Positions 2,295 through 20,940 of a DNA stretch of 24,875 bases are shown piece by piece. Below the pieces are notes generated by a model, which saw nothing but the letters and a program-made list of their open reading frames with translations, did no database searches and had not been told where the DNA came from. The DNA is from a virus, in the IMG/VR virus record IMGVR_UViG_3300043568_001129, positions 1-24,875 of that record; one strand, written 5' to 3'. Position 1 is the stretch's first letter. Every line of letters begins with the position of its first letter. The position numbers were made by a program, and so were the translations under genes.

Positions 2295-2801
2295 ATGCCA
2301 AGAACCACAATAGCCGACGCCTGCCGGGAAAGAGGCATTGACCGAAAGGATTGGGACGAAGCCAAGCGCCAAGGAATCGACCCATGGAACCGCCCGGAAA
2401 TGGACGCATGGCTGGGTTCTCGCCGCCATCGAATCGCGCCGGGAGCCACGATAACCGATCCATCCGCCGCATCCGCTCAAAGCCTAGAGGAGATGGAGCA
2501 CGCGATCCGTTCTGCTAAAGACATCGACACGGTTAAAATCCTCAAGGAAAAGGTTCTCGCCCTAAAAGGCATCGTTGCTGTCCAACAAGAAACCCGCGAG
2601 CTTGTCCCGGCTGGCGAGGTCCGGCAATCTATTACAAAAGTCGTCGCCGCTGCTCGTGGTGAAATCCTCAAGCTGTCGGCAGACCTTCCACCTCGATTGG
2701 AGGGATTGTCAGCCGCTAAAATGCAGCCGCTCATCCGGGAATCGGTGATCGAAGTCCTCACCCGCCTTGCCGACGAAACATCCACGCTTTACGCAGAATG
2801 A
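2295..2801 (+). CDS. Putative terminase small subunit (Nu1-like)
   Basis: The product is 168 residues from ATG 2295. An ATG at 2253 in frame would add 14 residues but lacks support. The N-terminus (TTIADACRERGIDRKDWDEAK) looks like a helix-turn-helix, and the rest is helical with a long charged stretch ending in a C-terminal helix. Small terminase subunits recognise the packaging site and deliver DNA to the large subunit. The assignment rests mainly on size, the HTH-like start and the ATGA overlap with the large terminase gene. Sequence conservation in this family is low. Confidence 0.6.
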   Translation: MPRTTIADACRERGIDRKDWDEAKRQGIDPWNRPEMDAWLGSRRHRIAPGATITDPSAASAQSLEEMEHAIRSAKDIDTVKILKEKVLALKGIVAVQQETRELVPAGEVRQSITKVVAAARGEILKLSADLPPRLEGLSAAKMQPLIRESVIEVLTRLADETSTLYAE

Positions 2802-4546
2802 TTCCCGCCGTCGTCAAAGGCGCATGCCTAGGATGGAAACCTCCAACCACGCTAAAGCCGTGGGAGTGGGCGGCGAAGAACGTAAAGATTTCCAACTCAG
2901 AGCGATCAAGCAAATACGACCCGGAGCAAACTCCATGGTGGAAAGCGCCGATGGAATGCGCTGCCGATGCCGAGACGCGCGAGGTAGTGGTTCTAGCGCC
3001 AACCGGAAGCGGCAAATCCACGCTTGCGGAAGCGTTGATTCCCTACGTTGTCAGCGAAGATCCGGGGCCGTTTCTTTACGCTTCCCAAACTGACGAGGAC
3101 GCGAAGTTCTGGGCGGAAACCCGACTCCAACCCGCGCTCAAATCATGCGCTGCCATTGCTGATTTATGGCCAGAAGATCGCCACAAATCACGCAAGCTAG
3201 ACATCATTTTTCCCCACATGCCGCTCATTATGGGTGGCGCGAACGGGTCAAATTTCCAAGAGAAGTCAATGCGATGGCTTTACGGGGACGAGGTCTGGAA
3301 ATGGAAAGCCGGGTTGATCCGTGAGTTTCTCGCCCGCCATCACGACCGATGGAATCGAAAGGTTTTTCTAGTATCGCAAGGCGGATTTGCGGATGGAGAG
3401 TTTGAGGGCGAGTGGAAGAAAACCGACATGGCGGATTTCGCTTGGCGGTGCGATTGCGGGCATGAGCAAGCCTACGATTTCGAGGCGCTAAGATTCGATA
3501 CAATCCCCCGCGAAGACGGAACGATTGACGAGCAGGCGACTGCCGACACCGCCCGCATGGAGTGCAAAATCTGCCGCAAAGCCTATGCCGACACGCCATC
3601 GAATCGCCGGAAGCTGGCGACTTCCAATCTCGGCAATGGCCACGGCGGGTATATCGCCACCACGGAAAGCGGCCTGCGCGGGTATCGCGGATTCCATATC
3701 GACGCCCTCGCAGTCTGGTGGGTTCCATGGTCAAGCGAAGTCCTTGGATGGCTGGAATCTGTCCGCGCATTGAAGCAGGGTATTGTCGATAAACGCCGCC
3801 AGTGGTGGCAAAAACGCCGCGCTAAATTCTGGGCTGATCACATGAGCGATGACGCCATGCCCATTTCGCGCGCCGACTTCACGAAAGCCGATTGCGAATC
3901 CGCCGAGCGTTTCGACTGGGAAAAGGAAAGGTTTATGACAATCGACGCCGGGGGAAATCACTTCTGGCACATGGTTTGCGCATGGGGTGATGGCGGGAAA
4001 GCCCGGATTCTTTCGGAGGGTTACGTTCCGAGCGACGGCAAAGACGAAAAAGCATTGGAGGACTTGCGGAAAAAATACGGAGTAGAACCCGGAAAAACCA
4101 TCATCGACATCGGATTTGACCAAGACCGCATACTTGACCTATGCGTGAAACACGGATGGACGGGCATCAAGGGCGATGGCGTGCGGACGGATTGGGAACA
4201 CGTTGACCGAACTGGAAACAAAGTCCGCCGCCTTTACTCGAAAACGCAACGCCAGAAAGCAAAGTCAGGCGGGATTGCTAAGTGGTTTTGGCTGGCGACC
4301 AACCCCGTTAAAGACATCGCGCACAGGCTCATTACCTGCCAAGGCGGTGAGCTAGAAGTTCCCGGCGACGTGTCAAAGGCTTTCGAGGCACACATGAAAT
4401 CCGAACGGCGGGAGGTGGTAAAGCACGCCAGAACCGGGCAGGAAACTCCGCTATGGATCACACGCAACCGCCAGAATCACTTGTGGGACTGCCTTGTTTA
4501 CCAAGTTGGATGCTCGCTAGTGTTTGAGCTTTTCGAAACGGATTGA
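2798..4546 (+). CDS. Terminase large subunit (lambda GpA family)
   Basis: This 582-residue protein is the DNA-packaging motor and nuclease. Walker A APTGSGKS lies at 67-74 and Walker B MRWLYGDE at 158-165, both typical of the GpA family. A metal-binding cysteine cluster (CDC then CKIC) follows in the middle. The C-terminal nuclease half has acidic motifs, including TIDAGG and IIDIGFDQD, that could hold the catalytic metals. The ATG overlaps the small-subunit stop (ATGA). The length is slightly under that of lambda gpA (641 residues). It is followed 37 nt later by the gpW-like gene, as in lambda. Confidence 0.93.
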   Translation: MIPAVVKGACLGWKPPTTLKPWEWAAKNVKISNSERSSKYDPEQTPWWKAPMECAADAETREVVVLAPTGSGKSTLAEALIPYVVSEDPGPFLYASQTDEDAKFWAETRLQPALKSCAAIADLWPEDRHKSRKLDIIFPHMPLIMGGANGSNFQEKSMRWLYGDEVWKWKAGLIREFLARHHDRWNRKVFLVSQGGFADGEFEGEWKKTDMADFAWRCDCGHEQAYDFEALRFDTIPREDGTIDEQATADTARMECKICRKAYADTPSNRRKLATSNLGNGHGGYIATTESGLRGYRGFHIDALAVWWVPWSSEVLGWLESVRALKQGIVDKRRQWWQKRRAKFWADHMSDDAMPISRADFTKADCESAERFDWEKERFMTIDAGGNHFWHMVCAWGDGGKARILSEGYVPSDGKDEKALEDLRKKYGVEPGKTIIDIGFDQDRILDLCVKHGWTGIKGDGVRTDWEHVDRTGNKVRRLYSKTQRQKAKSGGIAKWFWLATNPVKDIAHRLITCQGGELEVPGDVSKAFEAHMKSERREVVKHARTGQETPLWITRNRQNHLWDCLVYQVGCSLVFELFETD

Positions 4547-4860: not shown

Positions 4861-6372
4861 ATGATCCTAAACGAATTTGGCCAGCCTTACGCCTATGGAA
4901 ACAGGGTCGCGCATGCGGCAGATCGCTCGCGATTCCGTGGCCCGCAATTTGCCGTTAGGCGTGATGACATCGACAAGCTCATCCCGACTCACGACTGGAA
5001 TGTGCTTTGCTCGCTATCCGAGCGGCTTTACGTCAACTTTGGAATCCCAAAAGCTGTAATCAATCAACGGGCTTCATTCAGCGTGGGAGAGGCTTTCCTG
5101 CCAACTTACACAGGCGAATCAGACATGGACGACGGCAAAGCAATCGCCTCGTTCATGCGTAAATACTGGTTTCCGTCATGCACCGTCGAAGGCGGGGTGA
5201 TGGATTGGCACTCGCTGCTTGAACTAACTTCAATCACCGTGGATATTTACGGTGATGCGTTTTGGATGCTCATCAAAGGCGAGGATGGATTCCCGCGCAT
5301 TCAATGCTTGCCGCCGCATCGCGTGCGATCCGACAACTCAAAGGAAACAGTTGAGGGCGGGCCTTGGAATGGTTTCAAAATCTCGCGTGGAATCATCCGT
5401 TATGCCAGCGGAAGAATCGCCGCTTTCCGCGTGCAAATGGGTGATGATGCGTCTGTTTACACCGATGTTCCGGCATCGAATATGATCTACGGGTTCAACG
5501 TGCTATTCGCCAAGCAGGGCCGAGGATTGCCGCTTTTCACCCATGCCCTTGAGGATTTCAAAACCTCGCTTTGCTCAATCGACGATGAGCGCATCCGCCA
5601 ACAAATCGTTTCCCGCCTTCACCTTTCGATTCACAACGAGCTAGGGGGCCCGGACCTAGAGAACCCTCGAAACTCCATGAGCCAGCCTGATTCTAACGGC
5701 AACTCATTCGTTGCAACAGCGACTCCGGGCGGGATCATTTACATGACCGCAGGCGCGGGCGAGAAGATCGAGCAAATCAAGCACGAATCACCCGGCGCTC
5801 TTTACGAGTCATTCCAAGACCGACTCTTCAAGTCCGCGATTGTCGCCGCCGATTGGGTTTATTCGCTTGTTTGGAACTCTCCCGGCCAAGGAACGGCAGA
5901 GCGTGCGGAAATAATGAAGGCTCGCCGCGCCATCGTGAAACGCCAGAAACTGCTAGACTTTTTTGCCCGCCGTGCAATCTCGTGGGCGTATTCCGTTTTC
6001 CACGAAGAAAAGCGCGTTCCTTTGCTGGATCATCCGTTTTCGTGGTCATTTTCCCGTCCGCCCCGGCTATCTGTTGACGATGGGCGCGAATCAAAGATGG
6101 AGCTTGAAGAGTGGCGGGCAGGACTTCGCAACACCGACGAAATCACGGGAGCGCGAGGTCTTACCGACGATGAATTTCACGAACGCCGCGCCCGGATCAT
6201 CTGGATGCGGAAATACACCGCAAAGCGCGTTGCGGAAGAACTCAACAAAAAGCACGGGCAGGAAATCACCGTGGAAGACCGCGAAATGGCGATGCTAACG
6301 CCAAACGAAGTTGCCGGGCAGCAATCAACACAAACCGAAACCACTCAAGACGATGAAACTCCTAACGATTGA
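4861..6372 (+). CDS. Portal protein (lambda gpB family)
   Basis: This 503-residue protein follows the gpW-like gene by one base (TAACATG). It has the pattern of lambda-family portals. The N-terminal part contains an RLYVNFGIPKAVINQR helix, the middle has 'DAFWML', 'RIQCLPPHRV' and 'PLFTHALEDFK', and the C-terminal half has the 'YESFQDRLFKSAIVAADW' stem region and the 'GTAERAEIMKARRAI' segment. Twelve copies form the ring at one capsid vertex, through which DNA enters and to which the connector binds. The last 20 nt overlap the protease gene. Confidence 0.9.
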   Translation: MILNEFGQPYAYGNRVAHAADRSRFRGPQFAVRRDDIDKLIPTHDWNVLCSLSERLYVNFGIPKAVINQRASFSVGEAFLPTYTGESDMDDGKAIASFMRKYWFPSCTVEGGVMDWHSLLELTSITVDIYGDAFWMLIKGEDGFPRIQCLPPHRVRSDNSKETVEGGPWNGFKISRGIIRYASGRIAAFRVQMGDDASVYTDVPASNMIYGFNVLFAKQGRGLPLFTHALEDFKTSLCSIDDERIRQQIVSRLHLSIHNELGGPDLENPRNSMSQPDSNGNSFVATATPGGIIYMTAGAGEKIEQIKHESPGALYESFQDRLFKSAIVAADWVYSLVWNSPGQGTAERAEIMKARRAIVKRQKLLDFFARRAISWAYSVFHEEKRVPLLDHPFSWSFSRPPRLSVDDGRESKMELEEWRAGLRNTDEITGARGLTDDEFHERRARIIWMRKYTAKRVAEELNKKHGQEITVEDREMAMLTPNEVAGQQSTQTETTQDDETPND

Positions 6373-15390: not shown

Positions 15391-16362
15391 ATGACCAATC
15401 TAACCATCACCGGAAACGGAAACTTTCCAATCAACTCCATCGGATTCGGGCGCGAGTTTAGCGTTGCCGTCTCAGGCACGTTTGGCAGCGGAACCATCAA
15501 GGCCCAATACGCCACCGCCGGACCCGTCGCCGCTACCGAGGTAGTGGACGACGACACGGAAACCGGGGCTTTCACCCTCACCGCCAAGAACCCCGGAACC
15601 GCTGGCAATAGCTACACCTTTGCCATTGGCGACCCTGCCGAAAGTCAGGCTCTCGCAATCACGCAAACCGGGCTGGATTTCGTGGTAACGCCAGCATGCG
15701 ATGCGGGCGATACTGCCGAGCTTGCGACCAGCATGATGGGATCACACAACGACATCCGCATTGTTGCCAATGTCGCCGGATCACTCGCTAACAGTTACAG
15801 CATCGAGCTACTTGCCGGAAGCGGAACCACGCAGGCGCTTTCCGTCGCCACGACCGACTATCTGAAATTCACCGTCACGCTTGCCCGTGCTGCCGACGCG
15901 ATTTCCACCACCGCAACGCAACTTGTCGCCGCGCTCAATGCTTACGCGCCTTTTGCCGCTCTAATGACTGCCGCCGTTAAGTCTGGCGACAACGGAAGCG
16001 GAGTTGTTACAGCACTGGCGGAAACCGATCTAACCGGAGGCGGGGCAAATGCCGCAATCACAACCACAAGCGCCGAGCTTGTCGCGCTCCTCAACGCCTC
16101 CGCAATCGTCACGCCTCACTTCTCAGCGGCTTTGAAAGCCGCATACGATGGCGCGGGGCTGATTGAGCCGCTTGCTGAATCCGCATTCACGGGAGGCACG
16201 GCAGGCACGTTCGTTGACTTCTCAGGCGACAACGCGATTTCATTTACCGCCGCTGGGCAACTCATCGGAACAAACGCGGGCATGCTCTCGACGATCAATC
16301 TAAACGTCGCCGGATCAACCACGCCAAGCATCACCGCCATCGTCACCGAGCTTCCCGAATGA
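15391..16362 (+). CDS. Repeat-containing tail fibre/structural protein
   Basis: The product is 323 residues, low in charge, rich in Ala, Thr, Ser and Gly. The N-terminal 40 residues form a compact beta module. From about 171 to 273 there are two tandem copies of a 52-residue unit: 'ISTTATQLVAALNAYAPF...LAETDLTGG' (171-221) and 'ITTTSAELVALLNASAIV...LAESAFTGG' (223-273). Such duplicated modules are common in phage fibres and extend their length. No adhesin family was named. Its stop overlaps the next start. Confidence 0.6.
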   Translation: MTNLTITGNGNFPINSIGFGREFSVAVSGTFGSGTIKAQYATAGPVAATEVVDDDTETGAFTLTAKNPGTAGNSYTFAIGDPAESQALAITQTGLDFVVTPACDAGDTAELATSMMGSHNDIRIVANVAGSLANSYSIELLAGSGTTQALSVATTDYLKFTVTLARAADAISTTATQLVAALNAYAPFAALMTAAVKSGDNGSGVVTALAETDLTGGGANAAITTTSAELVALLNASAIVTPHFSAALKAAYDGAGLIEPLAESAFTGGTAGTFVDFSGDNAISFTAAGQLIGTNAGMLSTINLNVAGSTTPSITAIVTELPE

Positions 16363-18092
16363 CAACCCGCTTAACAACTCGCGGAACCACGCGCTCGACA
16401 ACTCGCGGCACCTCGCCGGGGGTTGCGTTTGACCCGGAGGTTTCCGCCTACGCTGCTCAGGAGGGTATCACCGACAGCGCCACGCTTCGTCGGATCAACA
16501 ACGCTGTGGTGGTTTTGGACAACGCTGGGATTCGCGGCAATCTCATTGACGCCGCTTTCTTGAGGACTGGAATGGTGGCAAGCGCAACGTCCCCGAAGAC
16601 CTTTCGCGGACTAACAGGCACCACTGGCGGAACTCCAACGCTTACAACCGAGGGCTTGGATCTTGTCGGAGCGACAAAATGGGCGCGGTGGGATCTAACG
16701 ACCGCCCCTGACGCTTTTACGATGGTCATGGACGTTCAAGGTGTCCTGTCCGGCCAGACGACATCCGCCACCATTGGGGGGATGATTAATGCGAGCGGCT
16801 GGACCGCGCCGGGTGGCCAGCTTCTCAATCTTAGCGGCGGGGCGAACACTACCGCTTACGTCGTGAGCCGCCAGTCGCCCACGACTACCACCACGAACGC
16901 GATGACCGACAACGGGGACGCTCGGGTTGTCGCCTTTTACAACCCACTGCCCCAAATCGTTGCTATCGACTATGACGACGCCTCAAGCCCGACCATAAAA
17001 GCGGCAGTGGATGGGCTTGTCGTCCTAACAGACTCCACCGGAAACACCCGTAGCACATCCGCGCTTGACCGTGTGATGATCGGCGCACGCTTCCAAAGCG
17101 GCACCACCTACGACACCCCATACAAGGGGAAGCACGCCGCGTGGCTGCTTTTCGACAAGGTTCTGGACGCCACAGAGCATGCCGCTGCTGCGCTGGCAAT
17201 CCGAATGCTGGACCCGCGCCGGATTACTTTCATCTGTCAGGGTGACTCCCTGACAGCGCAGTTCGCAAACCTAGCCGTTGGTCTGGGCAACTGGCCCGCT
17301 TGGTTTATCCGCCGCAACACCGCCCGCAATGCCGCCGTGCGACTCATCAACGGGGCGCGGAACGGCACCACGTCCGTGGATGGCGTCACCAACTTCCAAG
17401 ATCGCGCAGGCCGTTGGTTCCCAGACGGCAAGATCGCGACTAGCGGAGTTTATTGGTTAATGTATGGCACGAATGACATCTTATCATTGGGCGCTTCGGC
17501 GGCGACGATTTACGGGAGGATTCAAACGCTGATGGGATTAGCGCGGGCGGAGTATCCGGGGATCGTCACTGGCTGCATGACAGTTTTTGCAGGGAGGTCC
17601 GGCGCTTACACCGCCCCGCAAGAAGCCGTTCGATCTGCGCTCAATGACCTTATCCGGGCGGGTGATGGCGTCGATTTTGATTTGCTGCTAGACACAGCCG
17701 AGATCGACATCATCCAAGATGGCATCGCACAGTTTTTCACCGACGCGCTACATCCGAACGCGGAGGGCAATCGGATCGTGGCCCAACGGGTAGCCGCAAC
17801 CATTCCTTTCGCTGGCATTACTATTCCGCGAAACACTGCGCTGCCCGTTGTCACTGGCACGCTGGAAGACGGCGAGACCCTGAGCGCGACCAACGGCACA
17901 TGGGAAAATTCACCATCCGGCTACACCTACCAATGGATGCGGAACGCCACCGACATCGGAAGCGCGACCGCCTCGACCTATCTTCTCACTGCCACCGACA
18001 TTGGAACCCGCATCGCCTGCCGAGTAACTGCCACAAACGCCAGCGGTGACGCGGAAATCACATCCAACTTCACATCAGCAATCAATCCATGA
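16359..18092 (+). CDS. Tail-tip protein with SGNH-hydrolase (esterase) domain
   Basis: This 577-residue protein is probably the receptor-binding spike. An N-terminal Thr/Arg-rich leader (residues 2-18) is followed by a LamG/concanavalin-like beta domain (about 108-288). An SGNH/GDSL hydrolase domain covers about 290-485, with block I CQGDSLT (Ser297), a Gly in block II near 337, block III GTND (Asn372) and block V DALH (Asp462, His465). All four SGNH positions are present, so it should be an active esterase or deacetylase. An Ig-like domain ends the protein (about 489-577: YQWMRNATDIGSATASTYLL). Likely target: acetylated surface polysaccharide. ATGA overlap with both neighbours. Confidence 0.85.
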   Translation: MTTRLTTRGTTRSTTRGTSPGVAFDPEVSAYAAQEGITDSATLRRINNAVVVLDNAGIRGNLIDAAFLRTGMVASATSPKTFRGLTGTTGGTPTLTTEGLDLVGATKWARWDLTTAPDAFTMVMDVQGVLSGQTTSATIGGMINASGWTAPGGQLLNLSGGANTTAYVVSRQSPTTTTTNAMTDNGDARVVAFYNPLPQIVAIDYDDASSPTIKAAVDGLVVLTDSTGNTRSTSALDRVMIGARFQSGTTYDTPYKGKHAAWLLFDKVLDATEHAAAALAIRMLDPRRITFICQGDSLTAQFANLAVGLGNWPAWFIRRNTARNAAVRLINGARNGTTSVDGVTNFQDRAGRWFPDGKIATSGVYWLMYGTNDILSLGASAATIYGRIQTLMGLARAEYPGIVTGCMTVFAGRSGAYTAPQEAVRSALNDLIRAGDGVDFDLLLDTAEIDIIQDGIAQFFTDALHPNAEGNRIVAQRVAATIPFAGITIPRNTALPVVTGTLEDGETLSATNGTWENSPSGYTYQWMRNATDIGSATASTYLLTATDIGTRIACRVTATNASGDAEITSNFTSAINP

Positions 18093-18250
18093 AAACCACT
18101 CTAACAGGATTCTTCGCAGGACTCGCCCTCATCGCGGGCGAGCTTAACGACCATTTCGACAGTGACCCGAAAACCGTCTTTTCCCTCGACGCGTTTCTGG
18201 CAGGTCTTGGGGCTATGGGCATGGGCTACTTTGCGCGTGACAAACAATGA
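18089..18250 (+). CDS. Small two-helix membrane protein, possible holin
   Basis: ATG 18089 overlaps the spike stop and TGA 18248-18250 overlaps the next ATG, giving 53 residues. Two hydrophobic stretches (about 4-16, LTGFFAGLALIAG; 33-49, LDAFLAGLGAMGMGYFA) surround an acidic loop (ELNDHFDSDP), with a charged end (RDKQ). Small two-helix proteins next to lysis genes are often holins, which open the inner membrane at the end of infection, but other small membrane roles are possible. It is below usual gene-finder length limits. Confidence 0.65.
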   Translation: MKTTLTGFFAGLALIAGELNDHFDSDPKTVFSLDAFLAGLGAMGMGYFARDKQ

Positions 18251-18519
18251 TCCTTGCCAATTTCGAGATCGAAAAACTACTCGCCGCCATGACCGGGGCG
18301 GGTGGTGCCATAGTGCTTGCCGCGCTGTGGATTCGTCACCTCATCGCTCAGGTTGACGGGCTTGTGGCGACGATAAAAGAAAAGGACGCCGCGATTCTAT
18401 CACTCGCGGAAAGGACCGTCGCCGCCATGCGTGACGTGATCGCCTTGGACGGCTCAACCAAAGACCGCTTGGACAAAATCGAAATGATTCTAACAAGCCT
18501 CAAAAATGGGCGCGATTGA
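18247..18519 (+). CDS. Membrane-anchored coiled-coil protein, possible holin or spanin component
   Basis: The product is 90 residues with one N-terminal membrane segment (MTGAGGAIVLAALWIRHLIA, about 15-34), followed by a long amphipathic helix or coiled coil (GLVATIKEKDAAILSLAERTV). This layout (one membrane helix, then a periplasmic coiled coil) fits an i-spanin; it also fits some holin-associated proteins. A separate lipoprotein gene at 19761 could be its outer-membrane partner. It overlaps both neighbours (ATGA at 18247; 14 nt at 18506). Confidence 0.6.
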   Translation: MILANFEIEKLLAAMTGAGGAIVLAALWIRHLIAQVDGLVATIKEKDAAILSLAERTVAAMRDVIALDGSTKDRLDKIEMILTSLKNGRD

Positions 18520-18940
18520 TACAGCCAACGCGATGCTGGACAAGGCGCTTTGCGGATTCTATGCCGCGCAAAGCCCGAGCGCGGTCACGATTGAACTACC
18601 ACTCCCCGGCGATAGGTGGGAGGCGTTCCCGCTTTCCGAAGGCGCTCCCGTTTGGTGGCGAAGTGAGCCGTTTGAAGGTGGGAAGGCGGTTCGCTTCATG
18701 TCCTCCGGTGCTGCAAAAATGGGCGCTCACTTCCACGACTTCGCGGAGGAAATAACGCAGGTTTCAGGCACGCTCATAATGGATTGCAACCGCCGGATTG
18801 TGCGGATAGGTCCGGGCGATTCCCACGTTTCTCAGCCCCACGAATACCACTCCGCCGCATACGGGCCGAGCGGCGGGGAAACGGTCTGCCAATGGCGCGG
18901 GATGATTGGTGAAAAAATTCCTTGCAAGGTGATTTCGTAA
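18506..18940 (+). CDS. Cupin-domain protein
   Basis: The product has 144 residues. Residues 73-88 read G-x-H-x-H-x3/4-E-x5/6-G (His75, His77, Glu81 or Glu82, Gly88), cupin motif 1. Residues about 104-115 (GDSHVSQPHEYH: Pro111, His112, His115) are a version of motif 2, so a metal ion could be bound. Cupins include dioxygenases, isomerases and non-enzymatic sugar binders. It is unusual in a phage late region. The start is within the previous gene's last codons. Whether it modifies a host surface sugar, the virion or a metabolite is unknown. Confidence 0.75.
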   Translation: MGAIDTANAMLDKALCGFYAAQSPSAVTIELPLPGDRWEAFPLSEGAPVWWRSEPFEGGKAVRFMSSGAAKMGAHFHDFAEEITQVSGTLIMDCNRRIVRIGPGDSHVSQPHEYHSAAYGPSGGETVCQWRGMIGEKIPCKVIS

Positions 18941-19760: not shown

Positions 19761-19916
19761 ATGAAACTACCCCGCCTAATCCACATCGCTGCCCTGTGCC
19801 TCATCGCGCCGATCCTCAATGCCTGCGCCATCCGCCTCAACGCGGACGGGTCAAAGGACGCAACGATTGACGCGCCGAGTGCAATCCGCATCATCGAAAT
19901 CATCGAAGGGAAATAA
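19761..19916 (+). CDS. Small lipoprotein, possible outer-membrane spanin
   Basis: The gene encodes 51 residues. A basic N-terminus (MKLPRL) and a hydrophobic stretch (IHIAALCLIAPI) lead to the lipobox L-N-A-C (Cys at 22), so it should be lipidated. About 30 polar residues follow the Cys, ending IIEIIEGK. Outer-membrane spanin lipoproteins have this size and architecture and join to an inner-membrane partner to fuse the two membranes at lysis. The start has the AAACC-ATG context. It lies directly before the putative lysin and after two unknown genes. It also implies a Gram-negative host. Confidence 0.7.
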   Translation: MKLPRLIHIAALCLIAPILNACAIRLNADGSKDATIDAPSAIRIIEIIEGK

Positions 19917-19918
19917 CC

Positions 19919-20491
19919 ATGTCAATCATCCCACCAAACCGCCCGCAAGCACCACAGTCTAAGGTCATGTCCGCCATGCGGAAGTTCCACCGCGATCAGG
20001 GCAAGGAAATCGCGCCCGTGACCGTAGTTGTCGCCCCCGGCTACTACTCCCTAACATTCGGCAAACCCGGCAATGACCGGGGATTCTATGACGATGCCGC
20101 CTTCATCGTCACCGACCGCACGTTTACCAGCTTCAACTTCAACAGCGACCCATCTGCATACAAAACGGGCATCTCCACCGTCCTGCCGGGTATCTACCCC
20201 TATCGCCGGGGATACCACAAACGAGGCAAGAAAAGCGGCCATCCCGCATTCAGGCCGGCAACAATGGGCGAGGCTTTGCCCGTTAAACGCGACGGTGAAA
20301 AGGGAAGATCAAAGCGTGACGGCGTGGCAAATAACAACCACCGAGGCGGCATTAACGGCACAAGCTCGGAAGGGTGCTTGACCGTTCCGCCTAGGCAGTG
20401 GGATGCTTACCATGCCTTGATCGACTCGGAAATGTCCCGCCTTGGCGTTCAGCATTTCAGCATGTGCATCTTGCCTGAGGGGTGGTTATAA
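19919..20491 (+). CDS. L,D-transpeptidase-like (YkuD/DUF5675-type) protein, candidate lysin
   Basis: The product has 190 residues. Near the C-terminus the sequence NNNHRGG (138-144), followed by TSSEGC (148-153) and LTVP, has the His plus S-x-G-C layout of L,D-transpeptidase-type catalytic sites: His141 and Cys153 would be the pair. The spacing is shorter than in classic YkuD and more like small phage versions (DUF5675-like). The N-terminal 80 residues are beta-rich ('VVVAPGYYSLTFG'). Such proteins act on peptidoglycan. It is the last + strand gene of the late block and follows the lipoprotein, so it could be the endolysin. No signal peptide is seen. Confidence 0.55.
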   Translation: MSIIPPNRPQAPQSKVMSAMRKFHRDQGKEIAPVTVVVAPGYYSLTFGKPGNDRGFYDDAAFIVTDRTFTSFNFNSDPSAYKTGISTVLPGIYPYRRGYHKRGKKSGHPAFRPATMGEALPVKRDGEKGRSKRDGVANNNHRGGINGTSSEGCLTVPPRQWDAYHALIDSEMSRLGVQHFSMCILPEGWL

Positions 20492-20518: not shown

Positions 20519-20848
20519 CTACTCCTGCGCATCCTCCCACTCAACAATCAGCCGCGCAAGCTGGCGAGTCGTGCGGACCTTCCTGCGCTTCTTGCCAGCG
20601 CAAGGCGTAGCTTCAAAGCCACGCTTGCCGCATTGGTTATCATAAAGGAACCAGCAAATCCACCCGCCAGAATCGAGCATTCCAAGCAGCTCTTCAAAGG
20701 CGCACCACGTTGCCATGAAAAGCTCGCCGCCAGGGTCAAGCGTTCCGGCTGCGTGCGCCTTGTCGGTGGCGTCACGCAGGCGCTGAAACACCTCGACAAT
20801 CGGCACGATCTTCGCTTCCCATGCGGCTATGCGTTGCGGTTTGGTCAT
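20519..20848 (-). CDS. Unknown protein on the minus strand
   Basis: The product is 109 residues from the ATG complement at 20846-20848; a GTG start at 20891-20893 would add 15 residues. It has a helical N-terminus (TKPQRIAAWEAKIVPIVEVFQRLRDATD), then an acidic/aromatic part (WCAFEELLGMLDSGGWICWFLYDNQCGKRG) and a basic C-terminal helix (RTTRQLARLIVEWED). The pattern 'W.CWF.YDNQCGKRGFEA' recalls small phage proteins found near replication or accessory genes, but no function is known. It ends 27 nt from the opposing lysin gene with no clear terminator between them, and lies downstream of the HTH gene in the same direction. Confidence 0.6.
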   Translation of the reverse strand: MTKPQRIAAWEAKIVPIVEVFQRLRDATDKAHAAGTLDPGGELFMATWCAFEELLGMLDSGGWICWFLYDNQCGKRGFEATPCAGKKRRKVRTTRQLARLIVEWEDAQE

Positions 20849-20940
20849 GGCCCAAAATTGAATTCCCACCACAGGGCGGGCAAGTCGGGACACCTGCCAC
20901 CGGGCATGAAGCCCGTTAACCCCGTGGCGAGGAAAGTTTG

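Follow-up and report, generated by a model that had tools for sequence, protein, structure and literature searches.

The gene and its neighbourhood

The window, that is, the whole stretch of 24,875 nucleotides of viral DNA analysed here, carries at 19919-20491 (plus strand) an open reading frame (ORF) that starts with ATG and encodes a protein of 190 amino acids with no evident signal peptide. On the basis of sequence, conservation and a structural model, it is annotated here as a YkuD-fold cysteine peptidase and putative endolysin of the PHROG 3000 family. The sequence-only reading had drawn attention to two residues of this protein, and both are encoded as it proposed: His141, the putative catalytic histidine, by CAC (20339-20341), and Cys153, the putative nucleophile of an S-x-G-C motif, by TGC (20375-20377), within ...NNNHRGGINGTSSEGCLTV... 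The codons of two other invariant residues are those of Arg124 (20288-20290), a candidate active-site or substrate-binding residue, and His100 (20216-20218), whose role would be an assisting one. Near-identical copies of the protein (94-96% identity) are present in three IMG/VR phage contigs (L001-L003). Comparison of the ORF with these copies gives dN/dS values of 0.08-0.11, with 49-56 synonymous changes, so it is real and under purifying selection. Promoter and terminator scans gave no signal above shuffles.

Small genes located upstream, on the same strand, could encode lysis partners. The first (18089-18250) codes for a 53-aa protein with two hydrophobic stretches, a holin candidate that is conserved in L001 and L003 and whose only match is phrog_29636 (unknown function, E 0.022). 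The second (18247-18519) codes for a protein of 90 aa in which a single hydrophobic segment is combined with a coiled-coil-like tail; possibly an inner-membrane spanin or a holin, this protein has no Pfam match above the curated cut-off and no PHROG. The third (19761-19916), located directly upstream of the putative endolysin gene and conserved in L001, codes for a 51-aa lipoprotein with a hydrophobic N-terminus and the lipobox ILNAC, a possible outer-membrane spanin. A cupin-like protein (18506-18940; PF02311, 1.7e-4) is encoded between the holin candidates and the putative lysin, and at 16359-18092 lies the gene for a tail-type protein of 577 aa, in which a GDSL lipase/acylhydrolase domain is recognised (PF13472, 1.7e-14). 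The ORF that directly follows the putative lysin gene (20519-20893) is on the opposite strand, has a counterpart in L001 (7443-7814, minus strand) and matches no family.

Two crude tests gave no support for the idea that genes for small membrane proteins or lipoproteins cluster beside members of the family. In the first, covering 69 loci, membrane genes represented 11.8% of the near genes vs 11.1% of the far ones, and lipoproteins 1.6% vs 1.3%. In the second, restricted to the same strand, the figures for membrane genes were 21.1% vs 18.8% at 19 viral non-crAss loci (lipoproteins, 7/147 vs 2/128) and 28.7% vs 31.4% at 10 crAss-like loci, with 14.4% vs 10.8% at 40 bacterial loci.

Family, invariant residues and fold

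Searches with the window protein against Pfam, NCBIfam, PHROGs and PDB sequences (phmmer) gave no significant match. Its sole match among 50,697 phage records is gp76 of Bdellovibrio phage phi1422 (35.7% identity, E 7e-14). A search with gp76 leads in turn to Crassvirales (crAss002 gp5, cr107_1, cr8_1, cr127_1, 'Rudgehvirus jaberico' and ctcc615) and also to DAC16-type Bacteroides phages; several of these matches have E values above 1e-3. All 13 members of a first alignment (A1), which has 13 invariant columns, match phrog_3000 (best E 6.1e-42), whereas the window protein alone reaches E 0.006; this PHROG contains the same domain and carries no assigned function. The A1 profile matched PDB sequences only through chance hits to nanobodies. 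Scans with A1, the crAss002 protein and a further alignment (A2) yielded 72 IMG/VR loci, 80 matches kept out of 321, and 79 bacterial-contig loci (from 80 of 93 kept). The PHROG 3000 family is present in IMG/VR phages, Crassvirales, phage phi1422 and bacterial contigs; still uncharacterised, it is shared by many phages of the gut and the environment.

The bacterial contigs closest to the window protein (44-48% identity) belong to Verrucomicrobiaceae, Akkermansiaceae and unclassified Verrucomicrobia, so that, judging from sequence similarity, the host of the window phage is likely a member of the Verrucomicrobiota. Among the 79 bacterial contigs with relatives, none has a title naming Bacillota or Actinomycetota (titles read by eye). 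One bacterial contig (L225) carries two copies of the family, at 438-1007 and 5174-5761. In a 634-kb phage record (L012, about 2700-3450), the relative seems, by eye, to have a peptidoglycan-binding-like insert inside the domain.

Nine residues (D59, P78, H100, R124, N139, H141, S150, G152 and C153) do not vary in any of the 230 aligned members, a redundant set with many close copies from which 5 truncated members were excluded. It is composed of 139 added sequences and the 91 rows of alignment A3, that is, the window protein and 90 representatives chosen at 75% identity, and the same nine residues are invariant across these 91 rows. The spacing between the conserved His and Cys is 12 in 148 of 234 family sequences, 16 in 80, 18 in five and 11 in one. 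The proposal that this spacing is unlike that of YkuD therefore holds for the window protein, in which it is 12, while 19 of 20 YkuD domains show 16 or 19 (19 in 12 domains, 16 in seven, 12 in one); it does not hold for the Crassvirales-like members, in which it is 16. The YkuD motif consists of an S/T-H-G-C box followed by an Arg at position C+2. In the window protein the box is SEGC, so that S-x-G-C is retained but another residue stands where the motif has its His, and the residue at C+2 is Thr or Val in all 234 family motifs, whereas it is Arg in 18 of the 20 YkuD domains. Val replaces Thr in 80 of the 234 sequences, which fits the Crassvirales-like set.

The window protein matches no Pfam family at E <= 1 and hence neither YkuD (PF03734) nor DUF5675 (PF18925). 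Although it shares with YkuD the S-x-G-C with an upstream His, it lacks an HMM match, the His in the box and the C+2 Arg. PF03734 matches two of the 91 A3 members, at E 0.024 or worse, and an hhalign comparison of a small YkuD profile with A3 was not significant (probability < 1%). With DUF5675, hhalign brings the His and the Cys of the two profiles into register (E 0.0062, probability 6%, with a DUF5675 profile of eight sequences), and the 12-residue spacing is found in four of eight DUF5675 domains; however, DUF5675 is absent from the 14 Pfam families listed for the 91 members. Since the curated models give no match, both family labels were rejected.

The AlphaFold2 models of the window protein and of the Crassvirales-like relative L086 have pLDDT values of 94.3 and 94.9, respectively. 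In the former, His141 is inside a strand (140-142) and Cys153 is immediately ahead of another (154-156). Foldseek found nothing in the PDB at E <= 0.001 for the window model, so the fold assignment rests on VIA-align, which re-ranks the Foldseek candidate list only. The 43 PDB entries listed for the window model (Z 5.4-9.2; the tool cautions that a Z under 8 may reflect a widespread arrangement) are assigned by name or family to the L,D-transpeptidase type, apart from 4xxt, which bears another name. The top entry is LDTGo (8qzg; Z 9.2, rmsd 4.1, 160 aligned residues), followed by Bd1075, Pgp2, Csd6, LdtMt1, YkuD and others. For the L086 model, ranks 1-47 are of the same type (4xxt apart), with Z values from 9.3 to 6.0, and the next row, where unrelated folds begin, falls to 3.2. 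What led us to accept the fold is the consistency of the entries across the two lists, together with this gap in Z: both models adopt that of the YkuD catalytic domain. Bd1075, Pgp2, Csd6 and Tlde1 are YkuD-fold enzymes too. DpaA (8ikr) and Tlde1 (7uma/7uo3) are among the structural matches, but the window protein has no sequence match to either, and only one of the 91 members matches Tlde1_dom (E 0.012). DpaA is a cellular amidase and Tlde1 a secretion-system effector, and neither is a phage lysis protein. Among the Foldseek matches in BFVD is a 'Lysin [uncultured marine phage]', with E values of 2e-7 and 9e-15.

The first assignment, to a Cys enzyme of the YkuD or DUF5675 kind, named the correct sort of enzyme but tied it to too restricted a choice of families: the L,D-transpeptidase-like fold and the invariant Cys bear it out, but the window protein has no Pfam match to YkuD or DUF5675 at E <= 1.

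Fusion partners and other lysins

Seven long relatives were scanned for additional domains. Phage_lysozyme was found in two of them (L191 and L223), Glucosaminidase in one (L192), a caspase domain in one (L198) and none in the other three. The lysozyme domain (PF00959, GH24) is N-terminal to the enzyme domain (E 1.4e-34 in L191 and 1.2e-36 in L223), and the match to Glucosaminidase (PF01832) has an E value of 9e-21. Another relative, L004, contains PG_binding_1 (E 1e-12), placed by eye at the C-terminus. The PHROG labelled 'endolysin', phrog_33083, probably represents the same lysozyme fusion, since its positions 1-144 match the lysozyme half of L191 and its positions 295-438 match L086 (E 3.7e-13); the window protein, in contrast, has no lysozyme part. 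The caspase domain (PF00656, 2.6e-15) is joined to the enzyme domain in one 773-aa protein of a Prosthecobacter contig (L198, 6273-8594). The modelled fold, which is that of peptidoglycan hydrolases, and the lysozyme, glucosaminidase and peptidoglycan-binding fusions of relatives are features expected of an endolysin.

These fusions also bear on two other functions. The fold is shared with crosslinking enzymes, and the protein could remodel the wall as a true transpeptidase or as a D-amino-acid exchanger, for instance in a superinfection block or a lysis delay. However, relatives are fused to lysozyme and glucosaminidase, the C+2 Arg is missing and a signal peptide is not evident, all of which makes such a role improbable. 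The second is that of a virion-associated wall enzyme for entry rather than exit, as could be thought from the position of the window gene, six ORFs after tail-type genes, and from the tail fibre gene nearby in phi1422. Against it, most members are small and soluble, relatives carry GH24 and peptidoglycan-binding fusions, and several Crassvirales have their member near the terminase and not near tail genes, so that only a very slight chance is left to this function.

That the window has no ordinary lysin gene, as first noticed from its ORFs, agrees with all the scans performed. A Pfam scan of 61 ORFs, 42 from the window and 19 from those parts of near relatives that reach beyond the window ends, listed 25 of 28 families, none of them a lysin family (a weak lysin match could sit among the remainder), and no lysin is listed for those flanks alone either. 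The window record was also searched directly for Amidase_2, SLT, Peptidase_M15_4, Amidase_3, M23 and GH19, none of which was found (the GH19 control being silent). Because the window record is a fragment, another lysin may lie beyond its ends. Within the window, the protein encoded at 19919-20491 is still the best lysin candidate, a choice now supported by these lysin-free scans and by the lysozyme, glucosaminidase and peptidoglycan-binding partners of its relatives.

Other lysins are also scarce in the phage records that hold a family member, to which the following counts refer (16-18 records). Phage_lysozyme (PF00959) is found in none of 16 records, all from relatives, and Amidase_2, Peptidase_M15_4, Amidase_3 and Peptidase_M23 in none of 18, the window record included. 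SLT is present in one of 18 (G008, 2822-3022; 3.1e-8), inside an open frame of 744 aa, and this phage carries a family member as well. GH108 is found in none of the 18 and GH19 gives sub-threshold matches in two (L069 and L077), the controls for both being silent, which makes the GH108 result uninformative. The GH19-like lysozyme ORFs of L069 (3106-3753) and L077 (2549-3151) encode about 200 aa and lie 2-3 kb upstream of the family member. Therefore, the latter need not be the main lysin in these two phages or in the one with the SLT match. Small coiled-coil-like ORFs and ORFs with two hydrophobic segments are seen by eye directly ahead of the family member in L069 and L077.

In the crAss002 record, gp16 is labelled a holin and no gene is labelled an endolysin; the phi1422 record names no lysin. 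The words lysin, endolysin, holin and lysozyme are absent from the passage of the crAss002 paper considered here (PMC8042965), and a 2012 table (PMC3391216) has a 'Lysin' in what is apparently the phi1422 column, the gene not being named. A Pfam scan of 128 proteins from both phages (65 of the 76 of phi1422 and 63 of the 81 of crAss002) listed 25 of 36 families, with no lysin in the list and with the same proviso for weak matches; not included were the very long crAss002 gp20, gp32 and gp33, genes that were cut or shorter than 200 bases, and the portal protein. In a PHROG scan, likewise, 25 of 86 families are listed.

An enzyme like DpaA, i.e., an amidase or carboxypeptidase that leaves the net uncut and detaches outer-membrane proteins or trims stems, so that the outer layer comes free at lysis, while another, unseen enzyme makes the main cut in murein, is a rather unlikely alternative that would fit part of these data. 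DpaA (8ikr, Z 7.5 and 8.3), Pgp2 and Csd6 match both models and Bd1075 matches the window model; the Arg after the Cys is lost; and no bacterial contig with a relative, among the 79 titles read by eye, belongs to Bacillota or Actinomycetota. According to a review (PMC12729407), DpaA is a YkuD-type amidase without an Arg that is conserved in LD-transpeptidases. However, some murein cutter is needed in the tested phage records, from which six lysin families are nearly absent, and differences in Z of less than 1 cannot rank subfamilies. We likewise consider it rather unlikely that the phage enzyme acts in the manner of DpaA on the covalent links by which murein is tethered to the outer membrane, severing these or trimming the L-centre bonds around them. 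If it did, it would provide an outer-layer lysis step without spanins in a widespread family for which no Bacillota or Actinomycetota contig is seen here and, in relatives with the lysozyme fusion, one protein would attack both glycan and peptide.

Proposed activity and significance

We favour as likely a phage endolysin that is soluble, has the YkuD (L,D-transpeptidase) fold and acts as outlined below. This YkuD-fold cysteine peptidase, whose activity is putative, is probably an endolysin or the peptide-cutting half of a two-enzyme lysin, and the host wall is probably cut by this small cysteine enzyme for the escape of the virus. Since no signal peptide is evident, a holin is expected: the enzyme would stay in the cytoplasm until the holin opens the inner membrane and would then reach the periplasm. 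There, Cys153 would be the attacker, activated by His141 and assisted by the invariant Asn139, Arg124 and His100. By analogy with other enzymes of this fold, Cys153 would form an acyl-enzyme at an L-centre of the stem peptide, most likely by cutting the meso-DAP3-D-Ala4 bond, and such a cut in the donor stem would sever a 4,3-crosslink. The acyl group would then be handed to water, unlike in a transpeptidase. Hydrolysis is favoured because the missing C+2 Arg resembles the situation of DpaA, which according to the review cited above (PMC12729407) lacks a conserved Arg (perhaps not the same one); by this analogy, the loss of an Arg present in 18 of 20 YkuD domains hints at a hydrolase. In some phages the enzyme would be the only visible murein hydrolase, and in others it would act fused to, or encoded near, a lysozyme that cuts the glycan.

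Phage lytic proteins of the YkuD type are already known, although PhaLP lists only 10 of them (PMC8310338); the present family escapes recognition by curated models, and the function of its main PHROG is given as unknown. Among the titles and abstract openings searched, none names this family as an endolysin. The assignment proposed here gives a candidate identity to PHROG 3000, a large group of unknown function, and to the lysin that is unnamed in the crAss002 and phi1422 records. Such enzymes might become new tools against the cell walls of Gram-negative bacteria and, if the assignment is true, a little-studied catalytic fold joins the list of common phage lysins.
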